A DNA stretch of 64,000 bases from Phoenix dactylifera. Its lineage: Eukaryota; Streptophyta; Magnoliopsida; Arecales; Arecaceae. Below, in pieces: positions 1 through 54,700 of this stretch. The translations under genes and the position numbers were made by a program. The notes under the pieces were generated by a model. The model made no database searches. It saw only the letters and a program-made list of their open reading frames with translations, and had not been told where the DNA came from. The DNA lies in the NCBI RefSeq assembly GCF_009389715.1, contig NC_052400.1:20739674-20803673 (forward strand), in the 5' to 3' direction. Position 1 is the stretch's first letter, and each line of letters opens with the position of its first letter.

Positions 1-957
1 CACAAGATGATGGTGGTCGAGGCGGATGGAAACTATGTCGAACCATTCTTTGTGTTTGATATGGACATCTACTCAGGTGAAAGTTACTCTGTCCTCATCA
101 CCACTGATCAGGCACCATCGTCAAACTATTGGCTCTCTGTTGGTGTCAGAGGAAGGCTTCCCCAAACACAACCTGCTCTCGCTATCTTAAATTACCAACC
201 CAATTCCCCATCAAAGTTACCTTCATCCAAACCTCCCATTGCTCCCACATGGAATGACTATGCCCATAGCAAATCTTTCTCCTACAAAATCCTTGCTCGA
301 CAAGGCACACCCAAGCCTCCAACGAATCCTGTCCGACAGATCGCCCTACTCAATACCCAGAACAAGATAAATGGCTGCACTAAATGGTCCATCAACAACA
401 TCTCCTTGGTCCTTCCACCCACTCCCTATCTTGGTTCCATGAGGTACCGCTTGAAGAATGCTTTTGATGACAGAAAACCACCTGAGAATTTTGCCAAGGA
501 CTACGATGTAATGAAACCTCCAAAAAATCCCAGCTCAATACAAGGTAGTAATGTATACAAGCTTGAGTTCAACAGCACAGTTGATGTGATTCTTCAAAAT
601 GCAAATGCGCTCTCCTATAATGTGAGCGAAATACACCCATGGCATTTGCATGGTCATGACTTTTGGGTGCTAGGATATGGAGATGGGAGGTTCAGCAAGA
701 AGGATGTCACAAAATTTAATCTAAGGAATCCACCACTGAGGAACACGGTGGTGATCTTTCCCTATGGATGGACAGCAATAAGGTTTGTGGCAGACAATCC
801 AGGAGTCTGGGCATTTCATTGCCACATAGAGCCACATTTACATATGGGCATGGGTGTAGTACTTGCTGAAGGTGTTGAATTGGTCAACAAGATACCAAAA
901 GAAACACTAGCTTGTGGAATGACTGGGAAGATGTTAATGCGCAACCACCTTCCATAA
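1..957 (+). CDS. L-ascorbate oxidase, C-terminal part (cut by window start)
   Basis: Apoplastic multicopper oxidase that oxidises ascorbate and reduces O2 to water. The frame is open from base 1 (His-Lys-Met) to the TAA at 955-957, giving about 318 residues, or roughly the last 55-60% of a normal ascorbate oxidase. What remains is part of cupredoxin domain 2 and all of domain 3. The copper ligands are visible: HPWHLHGH at about 634-657 and [13 protein letters not shown] at about 817-855, with the Met as probable type-1 ligand. The family phrases [11 protein letters not shown] and [14 protein letters not shown] are intact. No stop or frameshift is seen and the copy looks functional. The N-terminal signal peptide and domain 1 lie outside the window. 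Laccases and SKU5-like proteins share the fold, but the wording of these motifs favours ascorbate oxidase. Confidence 0.93.
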
Positions 958-10661: not shown

Positions 10662-13600
10662 TCAGTCTATTTTCACAGATGAATATATCTTGCGGACAAA
10701 CCAGAAACAGGCGTAGAAGCCAATTGTTCCCGTCAACACGAAGAAAGCATAAGACCCAATCAACATATACCCAAAGTAAAGGATACCTGAAACCACCTTT
10801 GTTATCTCCAGCTTGGTGAAGAAATAGAAGCCAGCATATGCGAAAAGGTAGAGTGCCGAAGACCCTGCAGTCAAATATGCCCTCCACCACCAATGGTAGT
10901 CCTCACTGCACAGCTGGAAGTAGCAAAGTACGATCGTTATCTCAGCACATGTTATGATGAGAATGATGAAGACTATGAAGAGGAATCCAAAAATGTAGTA
11001 GAACTGGTTCAGCCATATGGAAGTCAGGATGAAGAAGAGCTCAATGAAGACCGCACCAAATGGAAGAATGCCTCCAATCAGAATAGAAAATGCTGGCTGC
11101 ATATACCAGGCATGCTCAGGAATTTGTCTAGGAATCTTGTTGGTCTTTACTGGACCCTCCATGGCTGGCTTCTTGAAACCTAGGTAGCTACCAACAAAAA
11201 CCAATGGCACTGATATACCAAACCAGAGGAATACCAAAGCAAACATGGTCCCAAAAGGAACTGCACCGGACGACTTCTCCCCCCAGATTAAAGCATTCAG
11301 AACAAAGAAGATGGCAAAGACAATACCAGGGAACATGAATGCAGTTTTCAGTGTAATCTTCTTCCACTCTGTACCTTTAAACATTTTATAAAGGCGAGCT
11401 GAGGAGTATCCAGCAAATAGACCCATAAAAACCCACAAAAGAACCATAGCAGTCATTAGACCCCCTCGGTTGGAAGGGGAAAGAAAGCCTAGCAATGCAA
11501 ACATCATAGTGACCAAGGTCATCCCAAAGAACTGCACCCCTGTTCCCACATAGACACAAAGCAGCCCAGAGTTAATGGGTGGCCTAAAGACATCACCATG
11601 GACTAATTTCCATCCAGATTCTTCCTGGGCTTCATCCTGAGTCTCCAACTGGTTATAATTAGCTATATCTCTGTAAAGGGTTCTCATCATGATCATGGCC
11701 ACCATCCCCGACAGAAAGAGAACTATCATTAAAGAATTGATAATGGAAAACCAGTGTATTTGATCATCATTCATGAGAAGGTAAGTGTCCCAACGAGATG
11801 CCCACTTAATTTGACTGGTCTGCAAGAGTTAAACTGAAGGTAAGAATCACACTCAGAAAGGTACAATTGAGTTTAGGAAAGTGAGTACAAACCTGGAAGT
11901 TAACATCATATGTGAATACAATGTATGTATCTGCAGCTACTTCCTGGGGACTAAGATTACCGGGAGTTATTTTAATGCTTGGACTGCATGTTGATAATTT
12001 AGGATTCTTATCATCCCACTCAGCATAGTCATGCTTAATACTGTATCCAAAAAGAAAAATTGAGGATTAAAGGCAAAGGTAAAAGTCAAGATAGTGGAAC
12101 AATTATGATGCAAATCAGCAAACAAAAATGGAGGGCTTTTTGGCTACATATTTGTTAAGCTACCACACCATGCAATCAGTAATGCCATGAATATAATTTA
12201 ATAAAACACATAACTAAATCCTAAAATGGTTCATGATTACTTTTACTTGATAAAAAGTTAATTTAGAACTATATATCTTGTTAAATAATTTTTATACATG
12301 TAGCCTAATTTTTATCATTAGATCAGTTTTCTAATTCAAGAGTATCAATACATCGAACAACTTGAATTTTGCGGGTTATATATCTGACGGCAGTTAGAAG
12401 CAAAGTTCAAAAACCAGTGACCTGGCCTAAACCACTATAGGGACTGGGTCACAATTTCCAGGACTGCAGATTTACCACAGATTGAACTCCTAACCTCCCA
12501 AATTTCCATATAAGGTTTAAGCACTTGATTCTCAAATCCAAAACCATTTCTATTCCCCAATCTTCATCCTTCCCAAGTCCCAATCCACATTGAAGAGAAT
12601 ACCTTTGCCATTGTTGCCAGTTCTCTCCCAAATCAACCAAGACCAAGAAGAGAAAAAATCCTCCTCCAAACTGTGGATTGACCATCCCATCTCATTCAAG
12701 ATCACTACCCCCAATTATCTTCTTTCCCAAATCAACCCAGAAAGACGAGGGTTGGAAGGCCTCTCTCGTCTTGGATTTTCCTCTCCTCCAATGATAGCAT
12801 CATGTCCTCGCCAGCAACATTATCATATTCATGCATTCCTCAATCCCTAACAGCAGAGTCCTCCCTAGCAGCTATGATAGAGAGAAAGAAGGGAGAAGAG
12901 GGAGTAGAAAAACATGTGGAAGCTTTCATGTATGCGGTACAGTTTGTTAACTACATTTACTAATCGGATAGGTGAAACCCACCCAACCAAGTGGTTTAGC
13001 TCTATGGACGGGTTTTTAAAAAATGGTACTGATGTTGGTATCAACTTTTGGCTGGACTAGTACTGCATGAGGCTGTCCCATACCAACAAACTGTATAGGG
13101 CTTCATATTGGTCCCATACCAGGATGATCAATTTTTTTTCTTTTAATGTTTTTTTAGGTTTTTATGCACAGTGAAGATATTTATCTTCTTTTGTATTTTT
13201 TTAGTATTTAAGGGATATTTTTAAAGGGTATATTATAATTGAGTGTTGACATCGACACCAACACTCAATGATCAATTAACTAACAATATTTATGAGTGAA
13301 GAATGGCATATACGACATAGTATTGTAAAAAGAAAATCATCATAAGTCACTTTAATAGTCTAATCCCATATAACATGTCAATAGCTTTTATATACATCTA
13401 GGTTTACTAGCAGTCCTAGCCTGGAACATTAAACCAACTTGGATATTATCCCCATTGCTGCTAACCATAAGATACTGAATAATGACATGATTGTGGCTCC
13501 TGATGCTGCAGATGAGTATGCATCTAGTACTCATCAGAGCCCGACCATCCTTGTTCAGGGTAGTAGGAAGCAACACTATACTTCGATCCCTCCAATCTAA

Positions 13601-25488: not shown

Positions 25489-26008
25489 TGTGAGGTTTAA
25501 TAGTCGCATATCGGAAAGACTCGGTTCAGAGTCTGAGCATATGAGATAGGTATCTTCTAATCCTGCAGACGCGTTTTGGATGGAAAACAAAATTAGGGAG
25601 CAGTCTGAGCGGCGCGTGCGGGCTCTAGGTTCTAGCAGGGGAGCCCCGTATTTCTCCCTCATGTAGCCCCCATATGGGCACCAGGTGTCTCACGTGCCCC
25701 GCGTAGGCGGAAGCGTGATATTTGGTATCAGAGTCGAGGGCGACTCTTGTCCGATGGTGGGAAGGGTGTGAGGCCTAATAGTTCCACGTCGGAAAAACTC
25801 GATCCGAAGCATGGGCATATGAGGTGGGTGTCTTCTAATCCCGCAGACGCGTTTTGGGTGGAAAACAAAACCGAAGAGGGCTTTGTGCGGCGCGTGCGGG
25901 CCCTAGAACCAGACAATATCTGGAAGGGAAGCCCCGTGTTCCCCCCTCATATGGTCCCTACGTCGGCACTAGGTGCCTCACGTGTCTCGTGTAGGCGGGG
26001 GCGTGACA
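25489..26008 (+). mobile_element. TRIM (miniature LTR retrotransposon), older copy
   Basis: The parts are an LTR at 25489-25720, an interior of only 46 bp (25721-25766) and an LTR at 25767-26008. The LTRs begin TGTGAGG and end GTGACA or a variant. The interior starts with TTTGGTATCAGAGTC, a primer-binding site complementary to initiator tRNA-Met, and ends with a purine tract (GGTGGGAAGGG) directly before the second LTR. The flanks are CTATA and CAATA, a possible 5-bp target duplication with one mismatch. There is no coding capacity, as normal for TRIMs. The two LTRs have diverged clearly, so the insertion is old compared with the copy at 27647. Confidence 0.85.
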
Positions 26009-27390: not shown

Positions 27391-27646
27391 TAGGACGGAG
27401 GCAAGATCGCAATGGTACCTCGTCTACGGCCTCCATGTATCAGCTTCTAAATAAAAGAGGTATCAAGTGCTATTAGGCTGTCTCAATATGGAAGCTAAAA
27501 ATGCCTATGAAGATTGAATGCCTTCTCCAGTTATGCTTGAAGAACAAACTAATACTAGAGATGAACTCCATAAAAAGCTAGGGAGATACATAGGAGGGTG
27601 TGTCAGTGTCTTCTATAATGATCCAACAGAATTGGTTGATCATATC
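27391..27646 (+). mobile_element. LINE remnant, left part (zf-RVT domain)
   Basis: This encodes a decayed zinc-binding reverse-transcriptase (zf-RVT) region: WKLKMPMKI, then TRDELHKKLGRYIGGC and FYNDPTELVDHI, the last in an open frame ending exactly at the insertion point. It continues at 37983 after the 10.3 kb insertion. Upstream RT and endonuclease domains were not found, so this is a fragment of an old plant L1-type LINE. Confidence 0.7.
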
Positions 27647-28160
27647 TGTCACGCCCCCGCCTCTGCGAGGCACCTAGTGCCCACGTGGGGGCCACATGAG
27701 GGGGGACCGCGGGGCTCCCCTGCCAGATATTGTCCGGTTCTGGGGCTTCACGCAAGCGTCCTTCACCCCTCCCCGATTTTGTTTTCCACCCAAAACGCGT
27801 CTGCAGGATTTGGAGTCACCCGCCTCATATGCCCAGGCTCTGGAACGAGTCTTTCCGATGTGGGACTATTGGGCCTCACACCCTTCCCACCATCGGACAA
27901 GAGCCGTCCTCGGCTCTGATACCAAATGTCACGCCCCTGCCTCTGCGAGGCACCTAGTGCCCACGTGGGGGCCACATGAGGGGGGACCGCGGGGCTCCCC
28001 TGCCAGATATTGTCCGGTTCTGGGGCTTCACGCAAGCGTCCTTCACCCCTCCTCGATTTTGTTTTCCACCCAAAACGCGTCTGCAGGATTTGGAGTCACC
28101 CGCCTCATATGCCCAGGCTCTGGAACGAGTCTTTCCGATGTGGGACTATTGGGCCTCACA
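27647..28160 (-). mobile_element. TRIM, young copy, left part of the composite
   Basis: The LTRs are 27647-27880 and 27927-28160, each 234 bp and differing at only about two sites by eye. The interior of 46 bp (27881-27926) carries, on the minus strand, the TTTGGTATCAGAGCC primer-binding site and the purine tract. It is the same family as 25489-26008. After 28160 the sequence runs three bases further (CCC) as if into another interior copy, and then LTR-A begins. Confidence 0.88.
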
Positions 28161-28164
28161 CCCA

Positions 28165-30223
28165 TGTCACGCCCCAAATCCGGATCATGACACGGCCGTG
28201 CTATTGCAATCTTATGCACACAATAACACGAAGCCACTTAAAATTTCGTAATGAAAATAAATAGTTTCATTTACTAATGTCATAACATTGTTCATGAAGT
28301 TGGAACAGTACAGAGCTTCTAAAATTTAATTTTACATAATATTTTCAATTACCCCAACCCTAAATAACACCAAGCTCCCTGCTCCTAGTAGTCTTATTCA
28401 TCTGTAGAAAAAAAATAGATGAAAAGATATGAGCTACACAGCTCAGTAAGTAACCATGTACTATCTTATTGGATCAAGTACAATTATGCCAATGCAGTGA
28501 TAAAAAAAAAAATAACAGTTGTAGTAAAATAAAACATTTTATAGATGATATACACAAATCAGGTCATAAAGCAATGCATGATCCATCCATGAAAGTTCAT
28601 AACCATGATAATGCAAGTCATATAGAAATATTGCCATTTATCCATACTTTATAAAACATACTCTCAGACGGATGTGCTGCTATGGTCACTATAATCCCGT
28701 GACAGGGCCTGTTAATCTTAGTCGACTAATTCTGTTATTCGTTACCAACTTTAACCCGTTGGCAGAGGGCCTGTTATTCTTTGGATGCTAGCTCCAGGGT
28801 GTCGACTGGCCTCTATTTCTAGAGGTGGTCATAGCTACCTGAGAGTTCATAAATCATATTCTTTTTCTTTCATAAATCATAATCATCATAAATAGGTTGG
28901 AAAATGATAAATGGCATTATATAATTTAAAATGCATAAACATGCCTCAAATATCATTTTTCATGCAGTCTAACATAATCATAATTTCATAACTCATACAT
29001 CATCAAATATTCATGAAGGATGCTCTTTAATCAAATTCATGTATCACATGCAATCATATACTTGATCCTAATTTTGAGGAAAATATATCATAAGCAATAC
29101 ATTTTCATAATGATGAATAAACAGTAATTTAAAAACTTTAAGATCAGTGCCAAGGTTACTTACATTGATTCGCTCACGAATCCCTAAGTACAGTTGGGCA
29201 ACTCCACTGTACCTATTAATATCATATAAAATCAATTATTTGCTATTCTCAACTTTACTATTTATTTTATTTTATTTTATTATATTTATTTATTTATTTA
29301 TTATTATTATTTTATTTCTTTTCTTTTCTTTTTTTTTTCTTTCCTTTCTTTTTTTTTTCTTTTCTTTTTCTTTCCTTTTTCCTTCTTTTTCTTTTTCTTT
29401 CCTTTTCTTTTCTTCTCTTCCTGTTTCTTCCCGAAGCTTCTCCCTTGCTTTCTTCTTTTTTTTTTTTTTCTCCTCCTCTTCTCTTCTCCCGACTCCTCCT
29501 TCCTCTCTTCTCCATTCTTCTCCCACGAAGGGATGAGGGCGAGGTCTGCAGGAGCTGAACCATGGCCGGCGGCGTCCATGGCGATCGACCCTCTCCTTTT
29601 TCCCGCGGAGGAGACGCGCACGGGAGAAGAAGAAAAGCCGCGACAGTTGGCCTTCTCCTTCTTCTCTTTTTCTTCTTCTCTTCTTTTCCTTTCACGATTC
29701 ATTAGATCTTCCCTCTTTTCCCGCGAAGCAAAGGGGGAAGACCTCCATGCCGGATCGCTTGGGAGGTGATCGGCCGAGGCCGATGACGCCCGCGACCGGC
29801 CAGCAGCGCCCGCAGGACGGCTGTGGCTGAGCCTGCGGCCGCTTCCCGCGATGGATCCGCCGTCGAAGACCACAGGTAAAGCCCTTCCCCTTCCCTTCCT
29901 CTTCTTCTTCTTCTTCTTCTTCTTCTTCTTCTTTTCTTTTCTTTTCTTTGTTTTTTTTTTTTTTGTAATTGATCTATCCTCCCATGTGGATCGGGAGAAG
30001 GAAATGCAGGAAAGAAAACAGGTGGTTAGGGGCTTACCTGGCTTCGGGGATGAACTGCGACGCCCCTCTCCGGCGGCATCAACGTGGGTTCAGAAAACCC
30101 TATCGCTGAGGAAGGACGTTCGAAGCTTTTATAGCCCCCGAAGAGTTAGAGGCCGCAACGGCCAATAGGCCTGGCCCACTGGTCTAGCTGTATGCGGGCC
30201 GGTTAATGAACTGGGCTCTCACA
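28165..30223 (-). repeat. LTR-A (2.06 kb) of LARD-like element, reverse orientation
   Basis: Reverse complement of LTR-B and LTR-C over its full length, from TGTGAGAGCCCAG (at 30223) to GGATTTGGGGCGTGACA (at 28165). It contains the same pyrimidine-rich tract (about 29255-29520), the GC-rich patch and the TATA box found in the other copies. It is a lone LTR in this orientation: no interior or partner LTR lies to its left. Confidence 0.88.
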
Positions 30224-30237
30224 TACAGCTAGACCAG

Positions 30238-32277
30238 TTCATTAACCGGCCCGCATACAGCTAGACCAGTGGGCCAGGCCTATTGGCCATTGCGGCCTCT
30301 AACTCTTCGGGGGCTATAAAAGCTTCGAACGTCCTTCCTCAGTGATAGGGTTTTCTGAACCCACGTTGATGCCGCCGGAGAGGGGCGTCGCAGTTCATCC
30401 CCGAAGCCAGGTAAGCCCCTAACCACCTGTTTTCTTTCCTGCATTTCCTTCTCCCGATCCACATGGGAGGATAGATCAATTACAAAAAAAAAAAAAAACA
30501 AAGAAAAGAAAAGAAAAGAAAAGAAGAAGAAGAAGAAGAAGAAGAGGAAGGGAAGGGGAAGGGCTTTACCTGTGGTCTTCGACGGCGGATCCATCGCGGG
30601 AAGCGGCCGCAGGCTCAGCCACAGCCGTCCTGCGGGTGCTGCTGGCCGGTCGCGGGCGTCATCGGCCTCGGCCGATCACCTCCCAAGCGATCCGGCATGG
30701 AGGTCTTCCCCCTTTGCTTCGCGGGAAAAGAGGGAAGATCTAATGAATCGTGAAAGGAAAAGAAGAGAAGAAGAAAAAGAGAAGAAGGAGAAGGCCAACT
30801 GCCGCGGCTTTTCTTCTTCTCCCGTGCGCGTCTCCTCCGCGGGAAAAAGGAGAGGGTCGATCGCCATGGACGCCGCCGGCCATGGTTCAGCTCCTGCAGA
30901 CCTCGCCCTCGTCCCTTCGTGGGAGAAGAATGGAGAAGAGAGGAAGGAGGAGTCGGGAGAAGAGAAGAGGAGGAGAAAAAAAAAAAAAGAAGAAAGCAAG
31001 GGAGAAGCTTCGGGAAGAAACAGGAAGAGAAGAAAAGAAAAGGAAAGAAAAAGAAAAAGAAGGAAAAAGGAAAGAAAAAGAAAAGAAAAAAAAAGAAAGA
31101 AAAGAAAAAAAAAGAAAAGAAAAGAAATAAAATAATAATAATAATAAATAAATAAATATAATAAAATAAAATAAAATAAATAGTAAAGTTGAGAATAGCA
31201 AATAATTGATTTTATATGATATTAATAGGTACAGTAGAGTTGCCCAACTGTACTTAGGGATTCGTGAGCGAATCAATGTAAGTAACCTTGGCACTGATCT
31301 TAAAGTTTTTAAATTACTGTTTATTCATCATTATGAAAATGTATTGCTTATGATATATTTTTCTCAAAATTAGGATCAAGTATATGATTGCATGTGATAC
31401 ATGAATTTGATTAAAGAGCATCCTTCATGAATATTTGATGATGTATGAGTTATGAAATTATGATTATGTTAGACTGCATGAAAAATGATATTTGAGGCAT
31501 GTTTATGCATTTTAAATTATATAATGCCATTTATCATTTTCCAACCTATTTATGATGATTATGATTTATGAAAGAAAAAGAATATGATTTATGAACTCTC
31601 AGGTAGCTATGACCACCTCTAGAAATAGAGGCCAGTCGACACCCTAGAGCTAGCATCCAAAGAATAACAGGCCCTCTGCCAACGGGTTAAAGTTGGTAAC
31701 GAATAACAGAATTAGTCGACTAAGATTAACAGGCCCTGTCACGAGATTATAGTGACCATAGCAGCACATCCGTCTGAGAGTATGTTTTATAAAGTATGGA
31801 TAAATGGCAATATTTCTATATGACTTGCATTATCATGGTTATGAACTTTCATGGATGGATCATGCATTGCTTTATGACCTGATTTGTGTATATCATCTAT
31901 AAAATGTTTTATTTTACTACAACTGTTTTTTTTTTTTTTATCACTGCATTGGCATAATTGTACTTGATCCAATAAGATAGTACATGGTTACTTACTGAGC
32001 TGTGTAGCTCATATCTTTTCATCTATTTTTTTTCTACAGATGAATAAGACTACTAGGAGCAGGGAGCTTGGTGTTATTCAGGGTTGGGGTAATTGAAAAT
32101 ATTATGTAATAATTAAATTTTAGAAGCTCTGTACTGTTCCAACTTCATGAACAATGTTATGACATTAGTAAATGAAACTATTTATTTTCATTACGAAATT
32201 TTAAGTGGCTTCGTGTTATTGTGTGCATAAGATTGCAATAGCACGGCCGTGTCATGATCCGGATTTGGGGCGTGACA
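30238..32277 (+). repeat. LTR-B, 5' LTR of the LARD-like element
   Basis: Matches LTR-C closely from TTCATTAACC to the terminal GGGGCGTGACA. The expected first bases (TGTGAGAGCCCAG) are replaced by TACAGCTAGACCAG at 30224-30237, a copy of sequence lying a little further inside the LTR. The probable promoter TATAAAAG is at about 30315-30322. A strongly purine-rich stretch occupies about 30920-31160. Confidence 0.88.
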
Positions 32278-35200
32278 TTTAGTGGTATCAGAGCCAGGTT
32301 TAAGATCATTAGGATTATGACAATTAAACTATCAGAAGCTAGGTTTAAGATCACTTAGGATTGCGATATGAATGATACAAGAACTTAAGGTTTAAGACTA
32401 CTAAGGACTGTGGCACAAGTGGCTTTAAGTTGGAAGTTTAAGATCATTGAGGATTGTAATAAAATTGGAATCAGAACAAAGGTTTAAGAGTAATAGGGAA
32501 TGTGACAGGAATATATGAGAGCTTAAAGTTTAAGATCACTAGTGATTGTGATAGAAATGTAGCAAATTTTTAAATTATGATTAAATTAGATTTTGACTAA
32601 TATTAAGTGGAGTACTAGCCATGGAATGTTAAAGTACATTGTGATTGTTTGTGTATTAGTATATAAGTGATTTTGGAAGATCAACTTGATATCGGGTACT
32701 GTGGATAATATTTCTAGTTTGTAGTTAATTATTTTAATGGCAAGATAAGGTTCATTCATAAGTTGTTTAAGGCTTGGACAAGAAAAGATTTTATATTCTT
32801 CGAGAATGAAATATGTATGACAATTATGCATGAAACTGTTATATAGAAAGAAAATTTATTTGAGGATGAGACTTAAGAGTTTTTCCTTTGTTTACTTGGA
32901 ATATGAAATATTAGATGTTTTCCAATTACAATGCGAATTGGTATTTTGATTGAAAGTCATTTAGTAAATTTTGAGAATAATTATCAATCTTGAAAAATAT
33001 TTGAGGCTCAAATGTTCTACTATGGATAAAGTGTAGTAGTTTATGATCCTGCAATAAATCAATTAAATGAATATTAGTTGATGTTTTGACAAAAAAAAAA
33101 GTCAAGGCTATGAGTTGATTTTGGCTTTTGTATCACCATTGATGAAATGCTAATGTGATTTCGTGAGAGGCCTAAATAAGTTTAACCAAAAAAAAAAAAA
33201 AAAGGATTCGGGATGGTTGAATGTGCTTATGAGTAAGTTAATTTGAAATCTTTTAATTCATCGGAGTATAGAATTAATATTCTTAAAAAAAAAAGAAATC
33301 AATATCAAATTGTAGAATGGAATTATCAAGGAAATTTAGAGTTGGCTTAGCTCGAATTGGATTTAGAATATGATTACATGATAATTCAATGATGCAAATA
33401 TGGCAATTATCTCGAGGATTAACCTTGATCTAGTATGCATCGGAAGCAAGGATAAAAAATAAAAAAAAAATGCTTGGATATTAAAAAAAAATGAAGAATG
33501 ATGATGATATGGGCTCAATTGGAAATGTAAGTGGAATCAGCAATAGAGTTTGATATGGGAACATGTTCAATAACACATGATGTTTCACAAGTTGTATTTA
33601 GTGATCCCTGTTTCTAAGATTTGAAATAAATTGTTTCATCTCTAATTGATGGGCAATTATTAAATACCTTTGTTTACCACTGAGAAGCAAGTTTAAATTG
33701 TTTCATGAGGAAGGTGAAAGTTATGCATAATAATTCCACATATCATTGTCTAGTGGAAGGAGCACAAGAGAAGAAGATTTTTTTTTTAAATAGAGATCTT
33801 ACGATAAAAGTATGCATCCCTTTCTTTTAATGGATATGTGAAATTCAGAATCACCTAGCAATGCTAAATTAGGGCAGATTATTGTTCATGCAATTTAAGG
33901 ATACCTAATATAACATATTAGGATATTGAGAAACAATTTCAAGAAGTTTACACCTTCCGAGCTTAAAATTTTTCAAGATGACTTGAAAGTTCATCTCTTA
34001 CTAGGAAAGAAGGCTCATTTTCTACGGATGAAGTTGCTGAAGATGGAAAATTTGTTTAAAGCATTTGTCACTTATTTAAGGAAAAAAAAATTCTAGCTAA
34101 GTAAATTCGATCAAGATGGAGGAAAGATTTGAAGTGCAAATACACATGTGGTGGAAATATTTATGATGATTTTGTTAACAAACCACATAAATTATAGTTT
34201 GACGGGCTAAGCAATTTTTCTATGGAGTTATAGAGAGTGAAGAAGAGAATTGTGGTATTTTCATTACTAGCTTATATGAATTAAAGGAGAAAAGTCACAA
34301 CTTTAGAACTGCCTGTGTAGCCCTCAACTCAATCAATATCCATCAACTGCTTCTCCAAACTGTATGAATGAACTTAGTAAGTATCAAAAAAAAAAAAAAA
34401 GGTGGTAGGATGCTCAATCCTTTAGCAGCTTAAAAAAAAAAAAAGATTTATGCTATTAACAAGGAAGGAATCAAAGAAGAGAAACAAGTTCATCAAAATG
34501 ATATGCAAAAGGCAGAGAAATGAGGTATTTAATAGTTTTGTTTGTAGACAAGTAGTATTTTGATCAAAAGTTATTAGTGAATCAAAAGGATTTTGATGTT
34601 TTGAATTAGAGTGCGCAGCGAAAACATAGTGATCTAAATTATTTATCTAAGTTGGTCAGAAGTATTATTTCTTTGATTCAGAAAGTTTTAATAATAAAAG
34701 ATTTGATTTGTTTTCTTGTGTAGTAGAACTTTTCTTGATAAATGAAAGAAAAATGTTCTGATTTTTGGATGTCGTTGTGCTATCTTAGATTCTCCAATTT
34801 TATGTCGAGTTAAGAAATTCTTAGCATCTTTTGACTAGAATTAATGGATCATCAATTTTGATCTTGGATTTGGAATATATTGGTATAGACCTCCTCCCTC
34901 CTAAATCTAAAGCTTGAATTTCTTCAATTAAGATCAACCCTCTATCTGATTGAAAGAAATTGCAGTTGTCAATCAACTTTGATGAATATCTATCAAGGGT
35001 GGATTAGAGTTGTTTATGATCTAATCTTGTGATAGATCGGTTAATTGAGAGAAGTTGATATTTTGACAAAGAAACTTAATGTTTTTATTCAGAATTAAAA
35101 CGTTGTTTTTTTTTTTTTTTTTGGTTTATAAGAGAAAAGCTTGATTTAAATCGCTTACCAAAGGAATTAAATGTGGAAGTATCGGACCTTATTCTTTCGA

Positions 35201-35917
35201 TAAAATCTAATGATGAAGTTGTATTGATAAGTAGAATTATTGGAAGACTTGAGTTAGTTTTCTAGTGGAGAAGAATGTTGTTGATTCTATGGATAATTTG
35301 GAGGTAGCTATGTAATTTTCACCAATGGGTTCTGTTATAGTTGACTATTCTTGGGAGAATTTTGGAAATCTTAAATTTAGTGTTAACGGATTGACAGTTC
35401 CTTGGTTGGGCTTAGATCTAGAATGCTTTAATATTCATTCCCTACTCCTAGTTATGACATTGTCAATCTATCTAAATGAAAGGGTTTGAGGTTTTTTTCT
35501 AGGATAAAGGTTGATCATTAATTCATGGGTAAAGTTAAGAGAAGAAAAAGGATTATAGATTATGAAAAGTATTTGATGCTAATGCTTTAACCTATTTGCA
35601 TTAAGCGGTTATAATTACTGTCCGGAATTAATCATGAACAATTAATTTCTTGGGCAAACAATTATGGTATTTGAAATCCAAGGTTGAAAGATTAGTCTTC
35701 TTTTGGAAGAGATCAAAATAACTCCTATGTGTTACAGGTAGAAAGGGTCAAGTTTTGAGATGCCGTGATTTTGCCAAAAAAAAAAATTTGTGAGTAAGCA
35801 CTCTCTGAGCGAGACTACTTTGGAGCTCGAGAATGATATGATGGTTACATACCTTCAAAGTTTGAAGCTCCAAGTAAGTTAATTTCGAGGACAAAATTTC
35901 TTTTAAGGGGGGAAGAA
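32278..35917 (+). mobile_element. Interior of LARD-like LTR retrotransposon
   Basis: Begins with TGGTATCAGAGCCAGG (32283-32298), a primer-binding site for initiator tRNA-Met, and ends with the polypurine tract AAGGGGGGAAGAA (35905-35917) next to LTR-C. The 3.6 kb between is AT-rich, full of oligo-A runs, and shows no gag, protease, RT, RNase H or integrase resemblance on either strand. Long LTRs with a non-coding interior define a LARD, which depends on enzymes from another element. Confidence 0.8.
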
Positions 35918-37977
35918 TGTGAGAGCCCAGTTCATTAACCGGCCCGCATACAGCTAGACCAGTGGGCCAGGCCTATTGGCCGTTGCGGCCTCTAACTCTT
36001 CGGGGGCTATAAAAGCTTCGAACGTCCTTCCTCAGCGATAGGGTTTTCTGAACCCACGTTGATGCCGCCGGAGAGGGGCGTCGCAGTTCATCCCCGAAGC
36101 CAGGTAAGCCCCTAACCACCTGTTTTCTTTCCTGCATTTCCTTCTCCCGATCCACATGGGAGGATAGATCAATTACAAAAAAAAAAAAAACAAAGAAAAG
36201 AAAAGAAAAGAAGAAGAAGAAGAAGAAGAAGAAGAAGAAGAAGAGGAAGGGAAGGGGAAGGGCTTTACCTGTGGTCTTCGACGGCGGATCCATCGCGGGA
36301 AGCGGCCGCAGGCTCAGCCACAGCCGTCCTGCGGGCGCTGCTGGCCGGTCGCGGGCGTCATCGGCCTCGGCCGATCACCTCCCAAGCGATCCGGCATGGA
36401 GGTCTTCCCCCTTTGCTTCGCGGAAAAAGAGGGAAGATCTAATGAATCGTGAAAGGAAAAGAAGAGAAGAAGAAAAAGAGAAGAAGGAGAAGGCCAACTG
36501 CCGCGGCTTTTCTTCTTCTCCCGTGCGCGTCTCCTCCGCGGGAAAAAGGAGAGGGTCGATCGCCATGGACGCCGCCGGCCATGGTTCAGCTCCTGCAGAC
36601 CTCGCCCTCGTCCCTTCGTGGGAGAAGAATGGAGAAGAGAGGAAGGAGGAGTCGGGAGAAGAGAAGAGGAGGAGAAAAAAAAAAAAAGAAGAAAGCAAGG
36701 GAGAAGCTTCGGGAAGAAACAGGAAGAGAAGAAAAGAAAAGGAAAGAAAAAGAAAAAGAAGGAAAAAGGAAAGAAAAAGAAAAGAAAAAAAAAAGAAAGG
36801 AAAGAAAAAAAAAAGAAAAGAAAAGAAATAAAATAATAATAATAATAAATAAATAAATATAATAAAATAAAATAAAATAAATAGTAAAGTTGAGAATAGC
36901 AAATAATTGATTTTATATGATATTAATAGGTACAGTGGAGTTGCCCAACTGTACTTAGGGATTCGTGAGCGAATCAATGTAAGTAACCTTAGCACTGATC
37001 TTAAAGTTTTTAAATTACTGTTTATTCATTATTATGAAAATGTATTGCTTATGATATATTTTCCTCAAAATTAGGATCAAGTATATGATTGCATGTGATA
37101 CATGAATTTGATTAAAGAGCATCCTTCATGAATATTTGATGATGTATGAGTTATGAAATTATGATTATGTTAGACTGCATGAAAAATGATATTTGAGGCA
37201 TGTTTATGCATTTTAAATTATATAATGCCATTTATCATTTTCCAACCTATTTATGATGATTATGATTTATGAAAGAAAAAGAATATGATTTATGAACTCT
37301 CAGGTAGCTATGACCACCTCTAGAAATAGAGGCCAGTCGACACCCTGGAGCTAGCATCCAAAGAATAACAGGCCCTCTGCCAACGGGTTAAAGTTGGTAA
37401 CGAATAACAGAATTAGTCGACTAAGATTAACAGGCCCTGTCACGGGATTATAGTGACCATAGCAGCACATCCGTCTGAGAGTATGTTTTATAAAGTATGG
37501 ATAAATGGCAATATTTCTATATGACTTGCATTATCATGGTTATGAACTTTCATGGATGGATCATGCATTGCTTTATGACCTGATTTGTGTATATCATCTA
37601 TAAAATGTTTTATTTTACTACAACTGTTATTTTTTTTTTTATCACTGCATTGGCATAATTGTACTTGATCCAATAAGATAGTACATGGTTACTTACTGAG
37701 CTGTGTAGCTCATATCTTTTCATCTATTTTTTTTCTACAGATGAATAAGACTACTAGGAGCAGGGAGCTTGGTGTTATTCAGGGTTGGGGTAATTGAAAA
37801 TATTATGTAATAATTAAATTTTAGAAGCTCTGTACTGTTCCAACTTCATGAACAATGTTATGACATTAGTAAATGAAACTATTTATTTCATTACGAAATT
37901 TTAAGTGGCTTCGTGTTATTGTGTGCATAAGATTGCAATAGCACGGCCGTGTCATGATCCGGATTTGGGGCGTGACA
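35918..37977 (+). repeat. LTR-C, 3' LTR of the LARD-like element
   Basis: A complete 2,060 bp LTR, TGTGAGAGCC to GGGGCGTGACA. It has a TATA box (TATAAAAG, 36008-36015), a GC-rich segment (about 36050-36610), a purine-only-like tract of about 250 bp (about 36620-36870) and an AT-rich U5-side half. It is nearly identical to LTR-B by eye, indicating a young element. Long open frames on both strands reflect the low-complexity tract and are not genes. Confidence 0.9.
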
Positions 37978-37982
37978 ATATC

Positions 37983-38310
37983 TTTGCCCAATGCCAGTTT
38001 TCGAGAACAATTTGGAATGTCATCGGTCAGAATTTGTATGTATTACAACCTCCAAACAGGTTTATTGGTCTCTGTTTACCTTGGAAAGCAAAATTCTTTG
38101 GGAAGGACCTTCAGAAATTTGTTTTCATATTGATTGTTGCAATCTCTTCAGAATCTTCTTACACAAAAACTCCTCTATTGCATCCGCAATGTGGGAAGAC
38201 AGTAGCCTTTTCAATGATTGGTGTTTGCTCTACCAAAACAAAGATCTATCTGCCTTTGCTAAAATCTTGTCCAAGTTAAAGGATGTCCCAAGAGAATTGT
38301 CAAATAAATG
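37983..38310 (+). mobile_element. LINE remnant, right part (zf-RVT domain and following)
   Basis: Continues the left part at 27391-27646. Directly after ATATC the frame reads FAQCQFSRTIW, so with the left side it gives DHI-FAQC, the H-x4-C half of the zf-RVT zinc site followed by the usual FSRxxW. Beyond about 38060 the family resemblance is weaker and the frame shifts. Confidence 0.65.
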
Positions 38311-39434: not shown

Positions 39435-42400
39435 TCAGGATGACTGCAGTCCTGAACGATTCATTGCTCTTGGGGTTATGTATGCATGCATAGGATGAAG
39501 TTTGTGGGTGGTGAGCTGAACAGTGTCTATGTTATCTTCCTCTCCTTCTTTCAGTCTCCACTCGAACTCTTGTATGAATCTACCAATGGCTGTACAAGAA
39601 ACTAGCATTGCCTGCAAAGATCCAGCACATGCTCTTTTTCCTGCTCCAAAAGCCATCGTCTTGTGCAGGTCCATTGGTTCAAAATTGCCCCCTAGAAATC
39701 TCTCGGGCTTCCATTCTTTAGGTTCATCCCAGTCCTTTCTGTTCATATTACATGCATAAAGATTGATGGCAATCTGCAAAAATTTGCAAGCGTCATGACT
39801 CATGAGACAACCCATGTAACACTACAAAATCAACAAGCAGATTTGTAAAAGCTCTGCGTTGCTTAGAACTCTCACCTGTGTCCCAGCCGGAACGTCATAG
39901 CCACCTAGTTGGGTGTCTTCATGGGCATATCTAAGAGGAACAACAGGAACAGGAGAATACCTCCTCGTAGTTTCATGGAAAACAGCATTCAAGTATGGTA
40001 GCTGCGGCAGGTGTTCCTCGGTAACCATCTTGGAACCACATACTTCTTGGATTTCACGATAAAGGCGATCCTGAAGATGAAGGAGATAAACAAGGCAGAG
40101 ATAACACAACAGGAAAAGCTAACAAGATGTGCTTTGCCAGTTACCTGACACTTCGGATTCCTAGCAAGTTCGTAGATAGCCCATTCTGTTGTGACCAAAG
40201 TTGTGTCAGAGGCCTCAATTATTGCTTCCCAAATCAAGGTGGCGACTTGCTCCTCTGTCAGTGTGTTTTCAGAGAGTAGAAAGTCCAGATAGCAGTTTAT
40301 TGCCTGTATATTGATGACAATTACATTCACGTTTGACGTTCTGAAACTGGAGTGTAATTGCGAAAAAATATGAGAACTTGCAAGAAGAGAGGCATGGAGG
40401 GATGAAGAAGACCTCTCCAAGTGCAATGCGTTTCTTCTGTTCATTGATCAGGGCCCTTGTCACTGCTCTCTTGCGAGTGACCATTCTCTGAATCTTCATT
40501 TCCATGTTCCTATTAGGAACCCACCTTAGATACGGGAAGAAATCCCTCCAGTCTACCTCTATTGCACCCATCATCGGATCGGTGACTAAGGCATCAAAAA
40601 TTTCTTTTTTCGACATCTCCCGCCCCAGCTCCTCCACATAAATAGATTCTAGATCCTTGCCAAGAGCCTGCAAGGTATTCAGGTGTTTCAAAAGTTTTCA
40701 GTGCGATTCTAAGCTCTAAATAACGTAGCCTGTTCTCATAGCGCCATAAGTACATCCCCAGACAAAAGACGTACGTTATGGGTCGTACTCCATGGCGAGA
40801 CTTACTTGTTTCAAGGCTAAGCGGAAAAGCTCAATCTTAAACGGCTCCCTGAGCTCCACTGCACTTTGAGGATTGTCCTTTATCTCCAAATGCAGCATAT
40901 TTACGATGTTATTTATCATGGTCTCCCTGAGGCCACGATATCGCTTCTGATGTTGGATAGCACAGAACATCATTTTAGCTTATAGAAGTTTTGTGAAACA
41001 AAGAAAAAATCATCCTACATGTGCTTTATATGCATCTATGGTCAAAGGAACATCTCTTATATTGGCATATTGCAAACCTGAGCATTTGTTCCCAAGACGC
41101 TGGCGAGGATATAGCGCTTCGTCATCTTATGGAACTCGCCATAGTCACTTGTGGCAACCATAGATTTGTTGGAAGTGAGCAATGTCAGCGCATTTGAAAG
41201 CTTTCGAGTCGAGATAGAGTTGAATCTAATCACCATTGCCTGAAAAAAAGGAAACAATGTCATGCCTCGCCAGCAGAGCAAATCGACGTCATTAGTGATA
41301 AACATTTCGGCAAACCAATAATCTTATTTGCAGCAGAAGCACTTCGAATGGGAAAGCGTTCGTTCCATTGTTATCTTTAATCCATAGCTTGGATAGATTA
41401 AAGATGCGTCCGGTTCATCTAAAGTTGTAATAAGGCATGACCTTATCCAAAAAGATTAGCCAGGAGGTTATCCAATGAATAACCGATGTGGGACTAAGCA
41501 CACGTCCGCACAAATCTTTACATACTACTTCCATTTAAGCTCTGACGTCCTCTTGATGCTAAAGGTTCAAACGACATGGGACTAAACACACATCTGCACG
41601 GGTCCTCATATACTCATTCCGTTTAAGCTCTGAAGTCCTCGCCAGGCTAAGGGTTCATATTCATTCAAATCTAATCACAAACACAACGATCGACCCGTAG
41701 TCAACCCCACTGAATCCGTGGTGCAGTATCCCCTAATTTACACAGATTATGGGCTAGATTCGCTCGAATACCATTTGTAACAACTCAGAACCTTATCTAA
41801 AAAAACTAGTCAGAAAATATTATTTGAATTCTTTAATCTTATATAAGTATCCAAAATCTACCCAGCGCATAACTGATTGTATAAATATCCAAGATCTATC
41901 TAGTAAATAACTGATATGGGACTAAACACACGTTCGTACGGATTTTCACAAAATTTTTTCTCTAATTGCCTACTATTTAACAGGTATCTACTACATATTC
42001 GGTTCTGTTGAAACCTAAATTCTCTCGTTGAACGAAATTTGCATGCCAAAAGCCAGCCACAATAGCAGACAATTCCGTGGAGATCGTAGACGGAAAATAG
42101 AAGGGGAGCGCCGGCATACCTCTTTGGCAACTTCGGCTGAGTTGAGGACCACCACGGTAGAGGCTCCTGTTCTGATGGAGTAGATAGGCCCATAAGTTTC
42201 GGCCCATTTCGCAAAGGTCTGGTGCGGCTTCTTCTCCCTGAGCTGATGCAGATTCCCAATCAAAGGTAGCCCAGGGACAGCTGCGCCAACAAAAATGCCC
42301 CAATTCAGAAACCACTCGGGAAAAACTAAACAAAACAAAACCAAACCAAACCTGACAAAGGCACAGAAATTAACGCCATATCCTCACAATTCTTTCATGA

Positions 42401-43707: not shown

Positions 43708-43849
43708 TAGTCGAGTGGCCTCTGCTCTCACTCCGCGGATGGTGGTTTCTTATAGCAGGCCATATAGAAAGGATAAGGGAAATATGGCGACAACTCAGCT
43801 TACGGATTTTCTCACAAACTTACCGTCTGTGGCGTATCTGGTGGGTCCC
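43708..43849 (-). promoter_or_regulatory. Presumed core promoter and 5' UTR of ent-kaurene oxidase
   Basis: Only 142 bp separate the start codon from the first unit of the tandem array. On the minus strand this piece contains CTATATGG (43767-43760) and CTATAAG (about 43754-43748), either of which could serve as a TATA element, but both are close to the ATG. More distal promoter sequence must lie inside the repeats. Confidence 0.35.
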
Positions 43850-46800
43850 TGTGATATCTGATGCCGACATAGCAACGTGGCAGTCCGACTGTGCAGTCAG
43901 TGTAAGGGTGGGGCAGTAGGAAGGAACGGGATAGACAAAAGCGAATAATTGACATCCCAACAAAGTATTTGAGAGGATGATGCCTCCACCTACTTTTTGC
44001 GGTCCATATGTGTAGCACTCACCACGGCAGGAGCGTGGCATGGGCACTGCCGCCCGGGTGAGCCGGTATTTAGGCCCATCTGGCAAATTTTTAGTGACCA
44101 AAAAATATTTTCTGATTTTTTAAAATTATTTTTTAAAAAAATAATAATATTTAATAAAAAATTGAAAAGCTATTTTAATTTTACTAAAAAGCTAAAATGC
44201 TTTTTGAGAAAAGCTCCAAAGTAGAGTTTCTTTTTAAAAAAATACTTTTAAGATATGTCGGAAAGCTTTTTTGATTTATAAATTTTTTTTGGACCAAAAT
44301 ACTCATGATAAAATGTTATAGTTACCGAAAATATTTCTTTTATATTACAGAAATTTGTAGGAGTCCTCGCAAAGAAAAACAAAGAACCCTAATCGGCTTT
44401 GGCTTTTTCGTGATCAAGATATTTTTTTATCTATTTATTTATCCATTGTTTTGATTTTTATTTGTAGAAAAATATTTTTTTAATTTTATTCTCTTTTTTT
44501 TAAAAATAATCCGTGATGAAGCCTCGTCATCCTTCTTATCCTTCATCGAACTCTCATTCTTTTTTTTAAAAAAAAACTCTCTCATTTTTTTTCTCTTTCT
44601 CATCATCCTCCATCTCCCTCTCTATGCCCCCTTCTCTCTATCTCTATCTCTATCTGTGATATCTTATGCCGACGTAGCAAGGAGGCAGTCCGACTGTGCA
44701 GTTCAGCATTAGGGGGGTGAGTAGGAAGAACGGGACAAAAGCGGATAATTGACATCCTAACAAAGTTCCTGAGAGGACGATGCCTCTGCCTACTTTTTGC
44801 AGTCCATACGTGGAGCACTCACCGCGGCAGGAGTGTGGCATGGGCACTGCCGCCCGGGTGAGCCGGTATTTAGGCCCATCTGGCAAATTTTTAGTGACCA
44901 AAAAAATATTTTCTGATTTTTTAAAATTATTTTTTTAAAACATAATAATATTTAATAAAAAATTGAAAAGCTGTTTTAATTCTACTAGAAAGCTAAAATG
45001 CTTTTTGAGAAAAGCTCCAAAATAGAGTTTCTTTTAAAAAATTACTTTTAAGATATGTCGGAAAGCTTTTTTAATTTATAAATTTTTTTTTGGACCAAAA
45101 TACTCATGATAAAATGTTATAGTTACAGAAAATATTTCTTTTATATTACAGAAATTTGTAGGAGTCCTGGCAAGAAAAACAAAGAATCCTAATCGGCTTT
45201 GGCTTTTTCGTGATCAAGATATTTTTTTATCTATTTATTTATCCATTGTTTTGATTTTTATTTGGAGAAAAATATTTTTTTAGTTTTATTCTCTATTTTT
45301 TTAAAAATAATCCGTGATGAAGCCTCGTCATCCTTCTTCTCCTTCATCGAACTCTCATTCTTTTTTTTAAAAAAACTCTCTCCTTATTTTTTTTCTCTTT
45401 CTCATCATCCTCCGTCTCCCTCTCTATCCCCCCTTCTCTCTATCTCTATCTCTATCTGTGATATCTCATGCTGACGTAGCAAGGAGGCAGTCCGACTGTG
45501 CAGTTCAGCATTAGGGGGGTGAGTAGGAAGAACGGGACAAAAGCGGATAATTGACATCCTAACAAAGTTCTTGGGAGGACGATGCCTCCGCCTACTTTTT
45601 GCGGTCCATACGTGGAGCACTCACCGCGGCAAGAGCGTGGCATGGGCATTGCCGCCTGGGTGAGCCGGTATTTAGGCCCATCTAGCAAATTTTTATTGAC
45701 CAAAAAATATTTTTTGATCCTCTAAAATTATTTTTAAATAAAATAAAAAATATTTAATAAAAAAATTGAAAAGCTATTTTAATTTTGCTAGAAAGGTAAA
45801 ATATTTTTTGAGAGAAGCTCCAAAATTGAGCTTCTTTGAAAAAATACTTTTAATATATACAAGAAAGTTGTTTTGATTTATAAATTTTTTTTTGGACCAA
45901 ACTACTCATGATAAAATATTATAGTTACAGAAAATATTTGTTTTATATTATAGAAATTTGCAGGAGTCCCAGCAAAGAAAAACAAAGAACCCTAATCGGC
46001 CTTAGCTTTTTCGTGATCAAGATATTTTTTTCTCTATTTATTTATCCATCATTTTGATTTTTATTTGGAGAAATTTTTTTTTTAAGTTTTATTTTCTGTT
46101 TTTTTAAAAATAATCTGTGATGAAGCCTCATCATCCTTCTTCTTCTTCATTGAACTCTCGTTCTTTTTTTTAAAAGCTATCTCCTTTTTTTTTTCTCTCT
46201 TTCTCATCATCCTCCATCTCTCTCTCTATCCCCCCTCTCTTTCTATCTCTATCTCTATCCGTGATATCTTATGCCAGACGTAGCAATGAGGCAGTCCGAC
46301 TGTGTAATTCAGCATTAGGGAGGAGAGTAGGAAGAACGGGACAAAAGGGGATAATTGACATCCTAACAAAGTTCTTGGGAGGATGATGCATGTGCCTACT
46401 TTTTGCCTTCTATATGAAGAGCACTCACCGCGGCAGGAATGTGGCATGGGCACTGCCGCCCAGGTAAGCCTAGCGTGCTTCCATTTTGATTTAGGCCCAT
46501 CTAGCAAATTTTTATTGACCAAAAAATATTTTCTGATCCTCTAAAATTATTTTTAAATAAAATAAAAAAATTTAGTAAAAATTGAAAAGCTGTTTTTACT
46601 TTGCTAGGAAGCTAAATTTTTTTTGGAAAAAACTCCAAAATGAAGTTTCTTTAAAAAAATTACTTTTAACATACACCCAAAAAACTATTTTGATTCATAT
46701 TTTTTATCAAAATATATATGATAAAATATTATAATTACAGAAAATATCTCTTTTATATTTTGAAAATTTGAAGGAGTCCCAACAAAAAAAAAAATAAAGA

Positions 46801-47160
46801 ACCCAAATCGGTCTTGACTTTTTTATGATCAAAATATATTTTTTTTCTATTTATTTATTTATCATTGTAATTTTATTTGAAAAAAAATATTTTTTAATTT
46901 TTTTAAAAAATAATCCGTGATGAAGCTTCGTCATCGTCCGTCTCTCCCATCGATCTCTCGTTCTCTCTTTCTAAAGCTCTCTCCTCATCTTATTTTTTTC
47001 CTCTTCCTCGTCATCCTCCTTCTCCTCCATCTCCCGCATATGGGAGGAACGGGACAAAAGTGAATAATTTGCATCCCAACAAAGTACGTGAGAGGATGAT
47101 GCCTGTGCTTACTTTTTGCAGGCGCGGCATGGGCGCTGCCGCCCGGGTGAGCCGGGCGTG
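43850..47160. repeat. Tandem array of about 800-bp units upstream of ent-kaurene oxidase
   Basis: Units start at the motif GTGATATC: 43850, 44655, 45457 and about 46259, with a partial fifth unit at 47041-47160. The spacing is 805, 802 and 802 bp, then about 782. Each unit has the same order of parts: GTGATATC/GACGTAGCAA/GGCAGTCCGACTGTG, then ACGGGACAAAAG, TACTTTTTGC, GGCACTGCCGCCCGGGTGAG, TTTAGGCCCATCT, an AT-rich half with AACCCTAATCGG, and a (TCTCTA)n run. By eye, units 1 and 2 are the most alike and unit 4 the most diverged. Open frames of 70-100 codons recur because the unit recurs; they look like no known protein. Confidence 0.9.
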
Positions 47161-51761: not shown

Positions 51762-54700
51762 GTGTGTGTGTTTTGCTCGATGCATAAGTTCTGTTTTGCT
51801 GATATGGGTTTGATTTTTTTTTTCTGTTTCAAGTTGTGTCCCTGGATCGGCCTACAAGGGAGGGTTGACATATGTGGAGCTAGGGGAGTCGGAGCTAATG
51901 ATCTCGGCTTCCATGCAGATCCAGCGGCAGTTCTATCAGGTAAGAGCTGCAGCAAGTGAGGAGAGATGTGGGGTGCTTCCGTTTTCTGTATCATTCGCTT
52001 GTCATGGAGATGCTTACTCTGGGTATGTTTCCATTGTATCAGGAAGCTGGAATTAAGGTTCGTACTTAATAGTAGAGTCACAAACCATTCTTGTTATTTA
52101 TCTTGAAAGTAATTGAAAAGCATATAACCCAACAATGAAATGGACTGTTGTTTCCAAACAGACAGCTGTTTTTATGGGATGCAGAAGCGGGGAGATTGAA
52201 TTGGGGATGGCGACGTTGAGTAATGTAATAAATTTACTTCACATTTCGCCAAAGATCGATTGTTATATCACCACTTCGATCTCCGCTCTAATACATCCAG
52301 TTGTATTTATTCTAAATGGAATGCAGGGGCAGATGTACACGCAAATGAGCATCCAACAAGTGTTCTCCGAGGAATGCATCCAACGTTCCCTTCTAGGGGA
52401 TCCATTCCCAGCACCCGACCAGGGCGGGCCCTCATCATCATCCTCCTCGTTCCGATCTCTGTCGGTGGGAAGTCCGGAGTACTCCTCCCTCCTACTCACC
52501 AAGGCGGGTGCTCATTTCATGCCGCGGGAGGTGGGTGGAGAGCAAGCGTTACTGGTTCCACCACACCAAATGTCCATCATGCAGGGCTACAGCCGCCACC
52601 GAAATGTCCAGCTTCCAACTCCTGCAGACGACGATGCAGCGATCACGAGAGCGATGCTTGCCGCTATCTCTTCACCTTCTACTTCTTCTTCTCCTCCACC
52701 GTTGTTTAATTACCAGTCTCCGCGCCAGGATCAGGCCCAGCAGAGCCGAAGGAGCCGACCGGTAGGGGCATTTGAGCCCTATAACCCAGCTCTCGCTCCA
52801 GATGTCGGACGCAACCCAGCGGTGCATGGACAGAAGATGGTGAAAACGGCGGTTTCAATCCTAAGAAGGATATATCAGATGAGATATGAACGTCGAATGC
52901 AGGAGCCACGGACGGCGAGCAACCAGTTGCACCATATGATATCAGAGCGCAGACGCCGAGAGAAGCTTAATGAGAGCTTTCATGCACTCAGAATGTTGCT
53001 TCCACCATGTACAAAGGTATGCATATATTTCTAACTAAAACTTCTTTTAACTTAACATGATGTCAAGCAAGTGTATCATATAAAGACAACCTTTGTTCCA
53101 CGACAAGAATTGTATTCATATATGCACACTATATGCTCATAGCAAAATATGATTGCTTTACCTATCTGTTGACAACCTGATCAGTAGAAGGAAGTTTCAT
53201 GTAAGACAGTAACTAGGGGATCCATAATTCAGTTTGATATTAGTTTCATGTTTGTTCTGTCTATTTGCGGCAACTTGATCAGGAGGAGAACGTTTTTGTT
53301 GAGAAGAAGTATGGAAATTGGCGCCTGTTCTACAGAAGAAATCCTTGACATTGATTTCATTTCATCGACATTGTAGGCTTTTAATATATATTTTGGTGTC
53401 ACATCTTATACTTGTTATACCTTTCTGTGACAAGTTGATCTGTAGAAAAAATAAGAATACTTGTTGTTAGACAGCAGCAAATTATTGAATGAACAATCTC
53501 TTGATATGTTCCTTCTTTTTCTCTCCCAACAGAAGGACAAGGCGTCAGTGCTTTCCAACGCAAGGGAGTTTGTGAATACTTTGAAAGCTCGAATCTCTGA
53601 GCTTGAAGAAAGACACCGGATGCTAGAAATGCAACTTCAGCCTGCTGATGAAACTAAAGAAGTTGGTGTTTCAACCGAAACAGTAGAAGTTCAGATTACC
53701 AGGGCCTCCGAATCAACGTCGCATGCCCAAAGAATCAACCTTAGAGTTACAGTTAGGGTAGAATGTAATATGATAGATTTAGTTCTCCACATTCTTGAAT
53801 GCCTGAAAGAGATGGGAGATATCAGCTTGGTATCAGTGGATGCAAGCACGGGTTTACCACAAGCGAATACATTTGCACGCTTAAACTTCACATTACAGGT
53901 TCAGGTATGTATAGTTACAAATATCCGTCATTTGATAGCATTGTTTTGGAAGTTACCTTGCCAATATTAATTCTTGTTAATCTTATGCTAAAAAGACTTG
54001 ATGAACTACCAATTTGATGAGATTTTTTTTCTTTTTCACTTCTAAATATTTTATTTCAAAATTTTGACATATTTACGGGATATTTGGTTTGAATTACAAA
54101 CTAAAGTAATTCATATTCTTAAGAGTTTATGCTTAATTTTTTTTGTTAATGAGACCTCCAGAAAGAAGGGATATGGAGCAGCAAATAATGTAACGAACTT
54201 TGTATTTTTTTTAAGCAGAATAAAATGTACCGAAGCATTACGTTTTTTGGAGAGTGGGATAAAGTTCTTAAACTAATCTTATCTTATGCAAAGCTAAAAA
54301 CATTGCCCCAAAGTTTTAGGACATGCATTTTTAGGTGGGCCCTCTTCATGAAATCGTTTTCAACTTTTTTCGGAATTTTCTTTCCTTGACCGGATGGCTG
54401 TCCATGGCTGGGTCAATAACAAACAACTATACCTTGTATCACAAATTTGACTGTCCCATCAAACAATTTAGCCAGGTTTGAACAGCTCGCCAGTTTCTTC
54501 CTACTGTGATGTAACATGTAGTCCCTTCAACTGAATCAATTTTTAATCTACAAGCTAACGTGATCTTTGATCTTTTGATCAGGCTAATGTATTTTGCCGG
54601 TTCTATGCTTCCCAACTTCTTAGCCACCTGATTTTTTTTTTTTCTGGCTGTCCAACTAATCAAGCACCACGGAATATTTATTGATAGGTTGACGCCCATT

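Follow-up and report, generated by a model that had tools for sequence, protein, structure and literature searches.

A two-family LTR-retrotransposon composite with U5 termini at both outer ends in Phoenix dactylifera, probably placed by one integration event

A LINE remnant in Phoenix dactylifera is interrupted by a block of sequence that begins with the LTR end of a TRIM and finishes with the LTR end of a LARD-like element. The locus raises the question of how parts of two families came to share one target site, and which joining events produced the order in which they now lie. We analyzed the block within the window, i.e. the whole stretch of 64,000 nucleotides of contig NC_052400.1 (GC content 38%), in which position 1 is the first nucleotide.

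Self-comparison and analysis of the ends delimited a block of 10,331 bp at 27647-37977, located between two copies of ATATC and composed of three units. The original prediction described a composite of two families, and both its TRIM part and its LARD-like part were recovered. The third unit, a solo LTR of the LARD-like element in inverted orientation at 28165-30223, was missing from that description. The features are as follows.

27518-27646, plus strand: left half of the LINE zf-RVT remnant (...ELVDHI)
27642-27646: left copy of the ATATC target duplication, directly beside TGTCACGCCCC, which starts at 27647
27647-28160, minus strand: TRIM, complete and reversed, 514 bp with two 234-bp LTRs; its outer left end is U5
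27647-27880 and 27927-28160, minus strand: TRIM LTRs, 234 bp each
27881-27891, minus strand: TRIM PPT, GGTGGGAAGGG
27912-27924, minus strand: TRIM PBS core, TGGTATCAGAGCC
28161-28164: joint 1, CCCA; CCC would fit the PPT side of the TRIM U3 end and A the PBS side of the LARD U5 end
28165-30223, minus strand: solo LTR of the LARD-like element, complete and reversed, 2059 bp
30224-30237, plus strand: filler of joint 2, TACAGCTAGACCAG, 14 nt, equal to LARD LTR nt 32-45, with an overlap of CA on one side and of CCAG on the other
30238-32277, plus strand: LARD 5' LTR from nt 14 on, the first 13 nt missing
32278-35917, plus strand: LARD internal region, 3640 bp
32283-32295, plus strand: LARD PBS core, TGGTATCAGAGCC
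35905-35917, plus strand: LARD PPT, AAGGGGGGAAGAA
35918-37977, plus strand: LARD 3' LTR, complete, 2060 bp; its outer right end is U5
37978-37982: right copy of the ATATC target duplication, directly beside GGGGCGTGACA, which ends at 37977
37983-38276, plus strand: right half of the LINE zf-RVT remnant (FAQCQFSRTIW...)

The surrounding DNA contains a cytochrome P450 fragment (PF00067) on the minus strand at 39992-40447, approximately 2 kb to the right of the block, which resembles ent-kaurene oxidase. About four head-to-tail copies of a unit of approximately 805 bp, 78-88% alike, are located at 43849-47155. Parts of ordinary, plant-type genes elsewhere in the window encode a multicopper oxidase (1-954, plus strand), an EMP70 endomembrane protein (10665-11828, minus strand) and a bHLH protein with DUF7050 and DUF7049 (52117-53967, plus strand).

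The left unit displays the features of a TRIM in its total length, its pair of short LTRs and the mere 46 bp between them, which contain a PBS and a PPT and no coding region. The two LTRs differ at two positions, both C/T, and the PBS core is one that we take to belong to tRNA-iMet. The right unit has the organization of a LARD, with LTRs, a PBS and a PPT enclosing a long non-coding interior, the longest listed stop-to-stop frame of which comprises 89 amino acids. A comparison of 8 of the 11 listed frames of this interior with Pfam gave three sub-threshold matches (E 0.06-0.17), none of them significant as a coding remnant.

The two families had been described as unrelated, which is not wholly borne out at their ends: identical stretches of 11 nt (U5 end) and 6 nt (U3 end) occur in both, and so does the PBS core. 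Because all three of these sequences are common to both, it is plausible, judging from the termini, that the TRIM and the LARD-like element relied on a common helper. Plant repeats would not be expected among viral_contigs, genome_contigs or plasmids, and no match was obtained there for the LARD U5-end pattern (viral_contigs and genome_contigs), the TRIM U3-end pattern (viral_contigs) or the TRIM region (plasmids). A second TRIM of the same family, approximately 79% identical and older, is located in forward orientation at 25489-26008, approximately 1.6 kb from the block. It has ordinary U3 and U5 outer ends and is flanked by CTATA and CAATA (4/5), which points to a 5-bp duplication as the usual outcome of insertion in this family.

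The polarity of the block could be read from the PBS and PPT positions, which agree with the earlier claim that both outer ends are of the U5 type. Along the reverse strand, the TRIM runs from the LTR at 27927-28160 through the PBS core and the PPT to the LTR at 27647-27880, which makes its left outer end U5. On the right, the LARD has its PBS downstream of the 5' LTR and its PPT upstream of the 3' LTR, and this outer end is likewise U5. Both U5 termini are intact to the base.

Does the block represent one insertion or several? The original prediction had placed ATATC at both ends of the segment 27642-37982, and the two copies were indeed found immediately adjacent to the terminal sequences. 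When the block, its units and the adjacent pairs of units were examined for a target duplication, only the block as a whole showed a full match (5/5). The scores for the individual units were 0/5 for the TRIM, 1/5 for the inverted LTR and 1/5 for the LARD at each of two assumed starts, and the pairs gave 0/5 (TRIM and LTR) and 1/5 (LTR and LARD), in agreement with the claim that the internal joints carry no target duplications. Two random 5-mers taken from outside the block match with a probability of 0.0015.

The LINE remnant also bears on this question. It had been proposed that removal of the block and one ATATC restores the LINE frame, and when the flanks were joined in this manner (CVSVFYNDPTELVDHI followed directly by FAQCQFSRTIWNVIG), a match to zf-RVT (PF13966), the zinc-binding domain in reverse transcriptase, spanned the join. 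The exact join with a single ATATC scored 22.9 bits (E=1.4e-4), which is below the Pfam cut-off of 27.5 bits and would fit a decayed fragment. It was the best of the ten joins tested: among nine altered versions (1-3 codons lost on the left, 1-2 lost on the right, 1-2 added, the second ATATC kept, or ATATC removed), six produced no match at all and the remaining three reached 16.0, 14.4 and 13.1 bits. The left flank alone had no zf-RVT match and only an unrelated one (E=0.22), the right flank alone had no match, and the joined 141-aa query retrieved no LINE homologues from the protein collection searched.

The full duplication register of the whole block, together with the zf-RVT match at the exact join, upholds the view of one net insertion. 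It is conceivable that the TRIM, the LTR and the LARD were inserted separately and that a deletion or recombination then removed the traces, and the older TRIM nearby demonstrates that the region has received more than one insertion. Such a history is, in our estimation, highly improbable, given that no sub-unit has a duplication of its own, that a 5-mer match of this kind would seldom arise by chance, and that the LINE motif scores best at the exact join. Rather, we consider it probable, as part of the overall explanation developed below, that the block is the product of one integration event.

The divergence among the three LARD LTRs is small. With only substitutions considered, 14 private changes were counted outside the low-complexity tracts, 13 of which are C>T/G>A changes (seven in the 5' LTR, three in the inverted LTR and three in the 3' LTR), the last being an A>T change in the 5' LTR. 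This bias is of the type that deamination of cytosines would produce in the inserted DNA. Four further changes fall within one low-complexity tract of the 5' LTR, and with all private changes counted the 5' LTR has 12 as compared to three in each of the others, so that equal age is unproven by these numbers. The inverted LTR is 99.37% identical to the 3' LTR and 98.64% identical to the 5' LTR, and gives no indication of a greater age than that of the LARD pair.

The same comparison bears on the integrity of the assembly at the internal joints. Inverted LTR pairs are a classic trap for assemblers and for palindromic reads, and an artefact at one or both joints was considered as an explanation. 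The inverted LTR is, however, no copy of the adjacent 5' LTR, from which it differs by 10 C>T/G>A changes, and is closer to the 3' LTR. An artefact would also leave the TRIM and the filler unexplained, and we regard it as very unlikely.

Joint 1 connects the U3 end of the TRIM to the U5 end of the inverted LARD LTR through the four bases CCCA. In the TRIM, the PPT-side neighbor of the U3 end is CCC, and beyond the LARD U5 end the first base toward the PBS is A. The joint may thus consist of PPT-side and PBS-side bases, although this fit is suggestive only, because 1.95% of all 4-mers could be split in the same way. We take the arrangement to resemble the junction of a 2-LTR circle, formed here between two families.

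Joint 2 connects two LARD U3 ends, one complete and the other without its first 13 nt. The filler between them overlaps the complete end by CA and the shortened end by CCAG, or by CCAGT if the next base is counted. When the filler was shuffled 200,000 times, no version matched either strand within the initial 100 nt of the LTR. A short templated filler between microhomologies is the pattern expected for polymerase-theta-type end joining, to which the joint may be attributed on the basis of its sequence. At yeast breaks, inverted templated insertions primed at microhomologies have been described (PMC11724301, in the portion of the text available).

Two other origins of joint 2 were considered and rejected. 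Autointegration of the LARD U3 end into its own LTR would be a single strand transfer with a 5-bp duplication, whereas joint 2, on inspection, needs two jumps, to nt 32 and back to approximately nt 10-14. The filler and the loss of 13 nt speak against a simple palindrome at the U3 tip.

Template switching and end joining had both been offered as sources of the composite, and the joints look more like end joining, because joint 1 is located at complete LTR termini and joint 2 contains a templated filler flanked by microhomologies. The further proposal of one chimeric cDNA formed before integration is not revealed by the sequence. If a reverse transcriptase had built a chimeric cDNA by switching templates in one particle, with one subsequent integration, the common PBS core would be in keeping with this and foldback of the nascent strand could have made joint 2; single-duplication complex insertions in cereals have been explained in this way (PMC1950507). 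Yet a switch at R or at the PBS would give hybrid or exchanged LTRs, whereas no LTR unit in the block is of mixed origin, and joint 1 coincides with LTR termini. We consider this origin improbable.

The explanation that we favor, and hold to be probable, is that the U5 ends of a TRIM cDNA and a LARD cDNA were paired in one integration, while the U3 sides were sealed by end joining. An integrase recognizing the common GGGGCGTGACA terminus would have brought the two U5 ends together and inserted them into opposite strands of one LINE site, and a stagger of 5 bp would account for ATATC being duplicated once. Outside the grip of the integrase, the U3 ends would have been left to the end joining of the host, which would have sealed an additional cDNA fragment of LTR length between them. 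One seal would be of the 2-LTR-circle kind, from TRIM U3 to LARD U5, and the other a polymerase-theta-like joint from U3 to U3. Plus-strand strong-stop DNA is a natural source of LTR-length fragments, and the middle piece may have been such LTR-only DNA or, alternatively, a foldback copy of the 5' LTR. We infer that the parts arrived together.

The joining could have preceded strand transfer, which would make the integrating molecule a chimeric linear cDNA, or followed it, with two cDNAs attached to one broken target. The second order could equally apply, since HIV-1 integrase in vitro favors two U5 ends over the combinations U3/U5 and U3/U3, and a 5-bp duplication was present in most of the products sequenced, according to the accessible part of that report (PMC8742673). 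As in the block, two U5 ends are joined there to one target, mostly with a 5-bp duplication; unlike the block, the donors are identical and the system is a retrovirus in vitro.

A different history would result if the LARD had integrated normally, with ATATC on both sides, and its U3 junction had then broken and lost 13 nt, after which the TRIM cDNA and the LTR fragment were end-joined into the gap. The shortened 5' LTR beside a repair-type filler is consistent with this scenario, and transposon cDNA is captured at breaks, as stated in the part of PMC11724301 that was available. Moreover, the TRIM U5 end reads TGTCACG and the LARD U3 end TGTGAGA, so that the common TGT makes the left joint ambiguous and offers an alternative route by which TRIM U5 could have met the target. 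We nevertheless rate the capture lower than U5-U5 pairing, and as unlikely, because it requires end joining to have left every base of the TRIM U5 terminus and of ATATC in place at the junction, and every base is in fact present.

Complex LTR insertions attributed to template switching have been described from Triticeae, rice and maize (Sabot and Schulman 2007, PMC1950507). These are similar to the block in having more than two LTRs, one flanking 5-bp duplication and an interpretation as one integration. They consist of same-family direct repeats with three LTRs and two cores, whereas the block contains two families arranged head-to-head, U5 outer ends and repair-type joints. One criterion from that study, a single 5-bp duplication around the whole complex, describes the block (ATATC, 5/5). 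Another, the combination of two complete cores, a shared direct internal LTR and like outer LTRs, does not, as the outer LTRs come from two families and have opposite orientation.

Other published cases resemble the block in part. Tandem LTR-retrotransposons of rice and other plants also have multiple LTRs, some with one 5-nt duplication, but their LTRs and internal regions alternate in direct order, and no inverted two-family joint is seen in the available portion of the report (PMC11899658). Arabidopsis epigenetic mutants likewise contain chimeric retroelement DNA, in the form of truncated and chimeric circles and insertions; as far as the accessible text goes, these are circles of one element with gene fragments, unlike the block (PMC10462705). 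The head-to-head case in the available part of PMC12312487 concerns DNA transposons. Among the titles and abstract openings listed by searches of a literature collection mostly without subscription papers, none described a two-family U5-U5 composite with one target duplication. Complex LTR insertions with a single target duplication are known, and the two-family, inverted, U5/U5 form is a variant of these.

Composites of retroelements tend to be attributed to nesting of insertions or to recombination at a later time. A block that has diverged so little, with a single clean duplication and repair joints that can still be read, documents what may befall cDNA ends on the way from reverse transcription to integration. 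It suggests that one integrase can serve different non-autonomous families and that these can come together in the same complex, and that DNA copies of different elements may be joined by the break repair of the cell and yet integrate cleanly. In its strongest form, which we put forward only tentatively, the locus would mean that in vivo the integrase of a plant LTR-retrotransposon brought together, on one target, U5 ends of cDNAs from two non-autonomous families, and that the chromosome, broken between two elements that were each only partly attached, was restored as a U5-U5 composite by U3 end joining and capture of a strong-stop LTR. The combination of U5 at both outer ends and one target duplication is a searchable signature, by which the frequency of two-donor integration, and any accompanying breakage of chromosomes, may be assessed.
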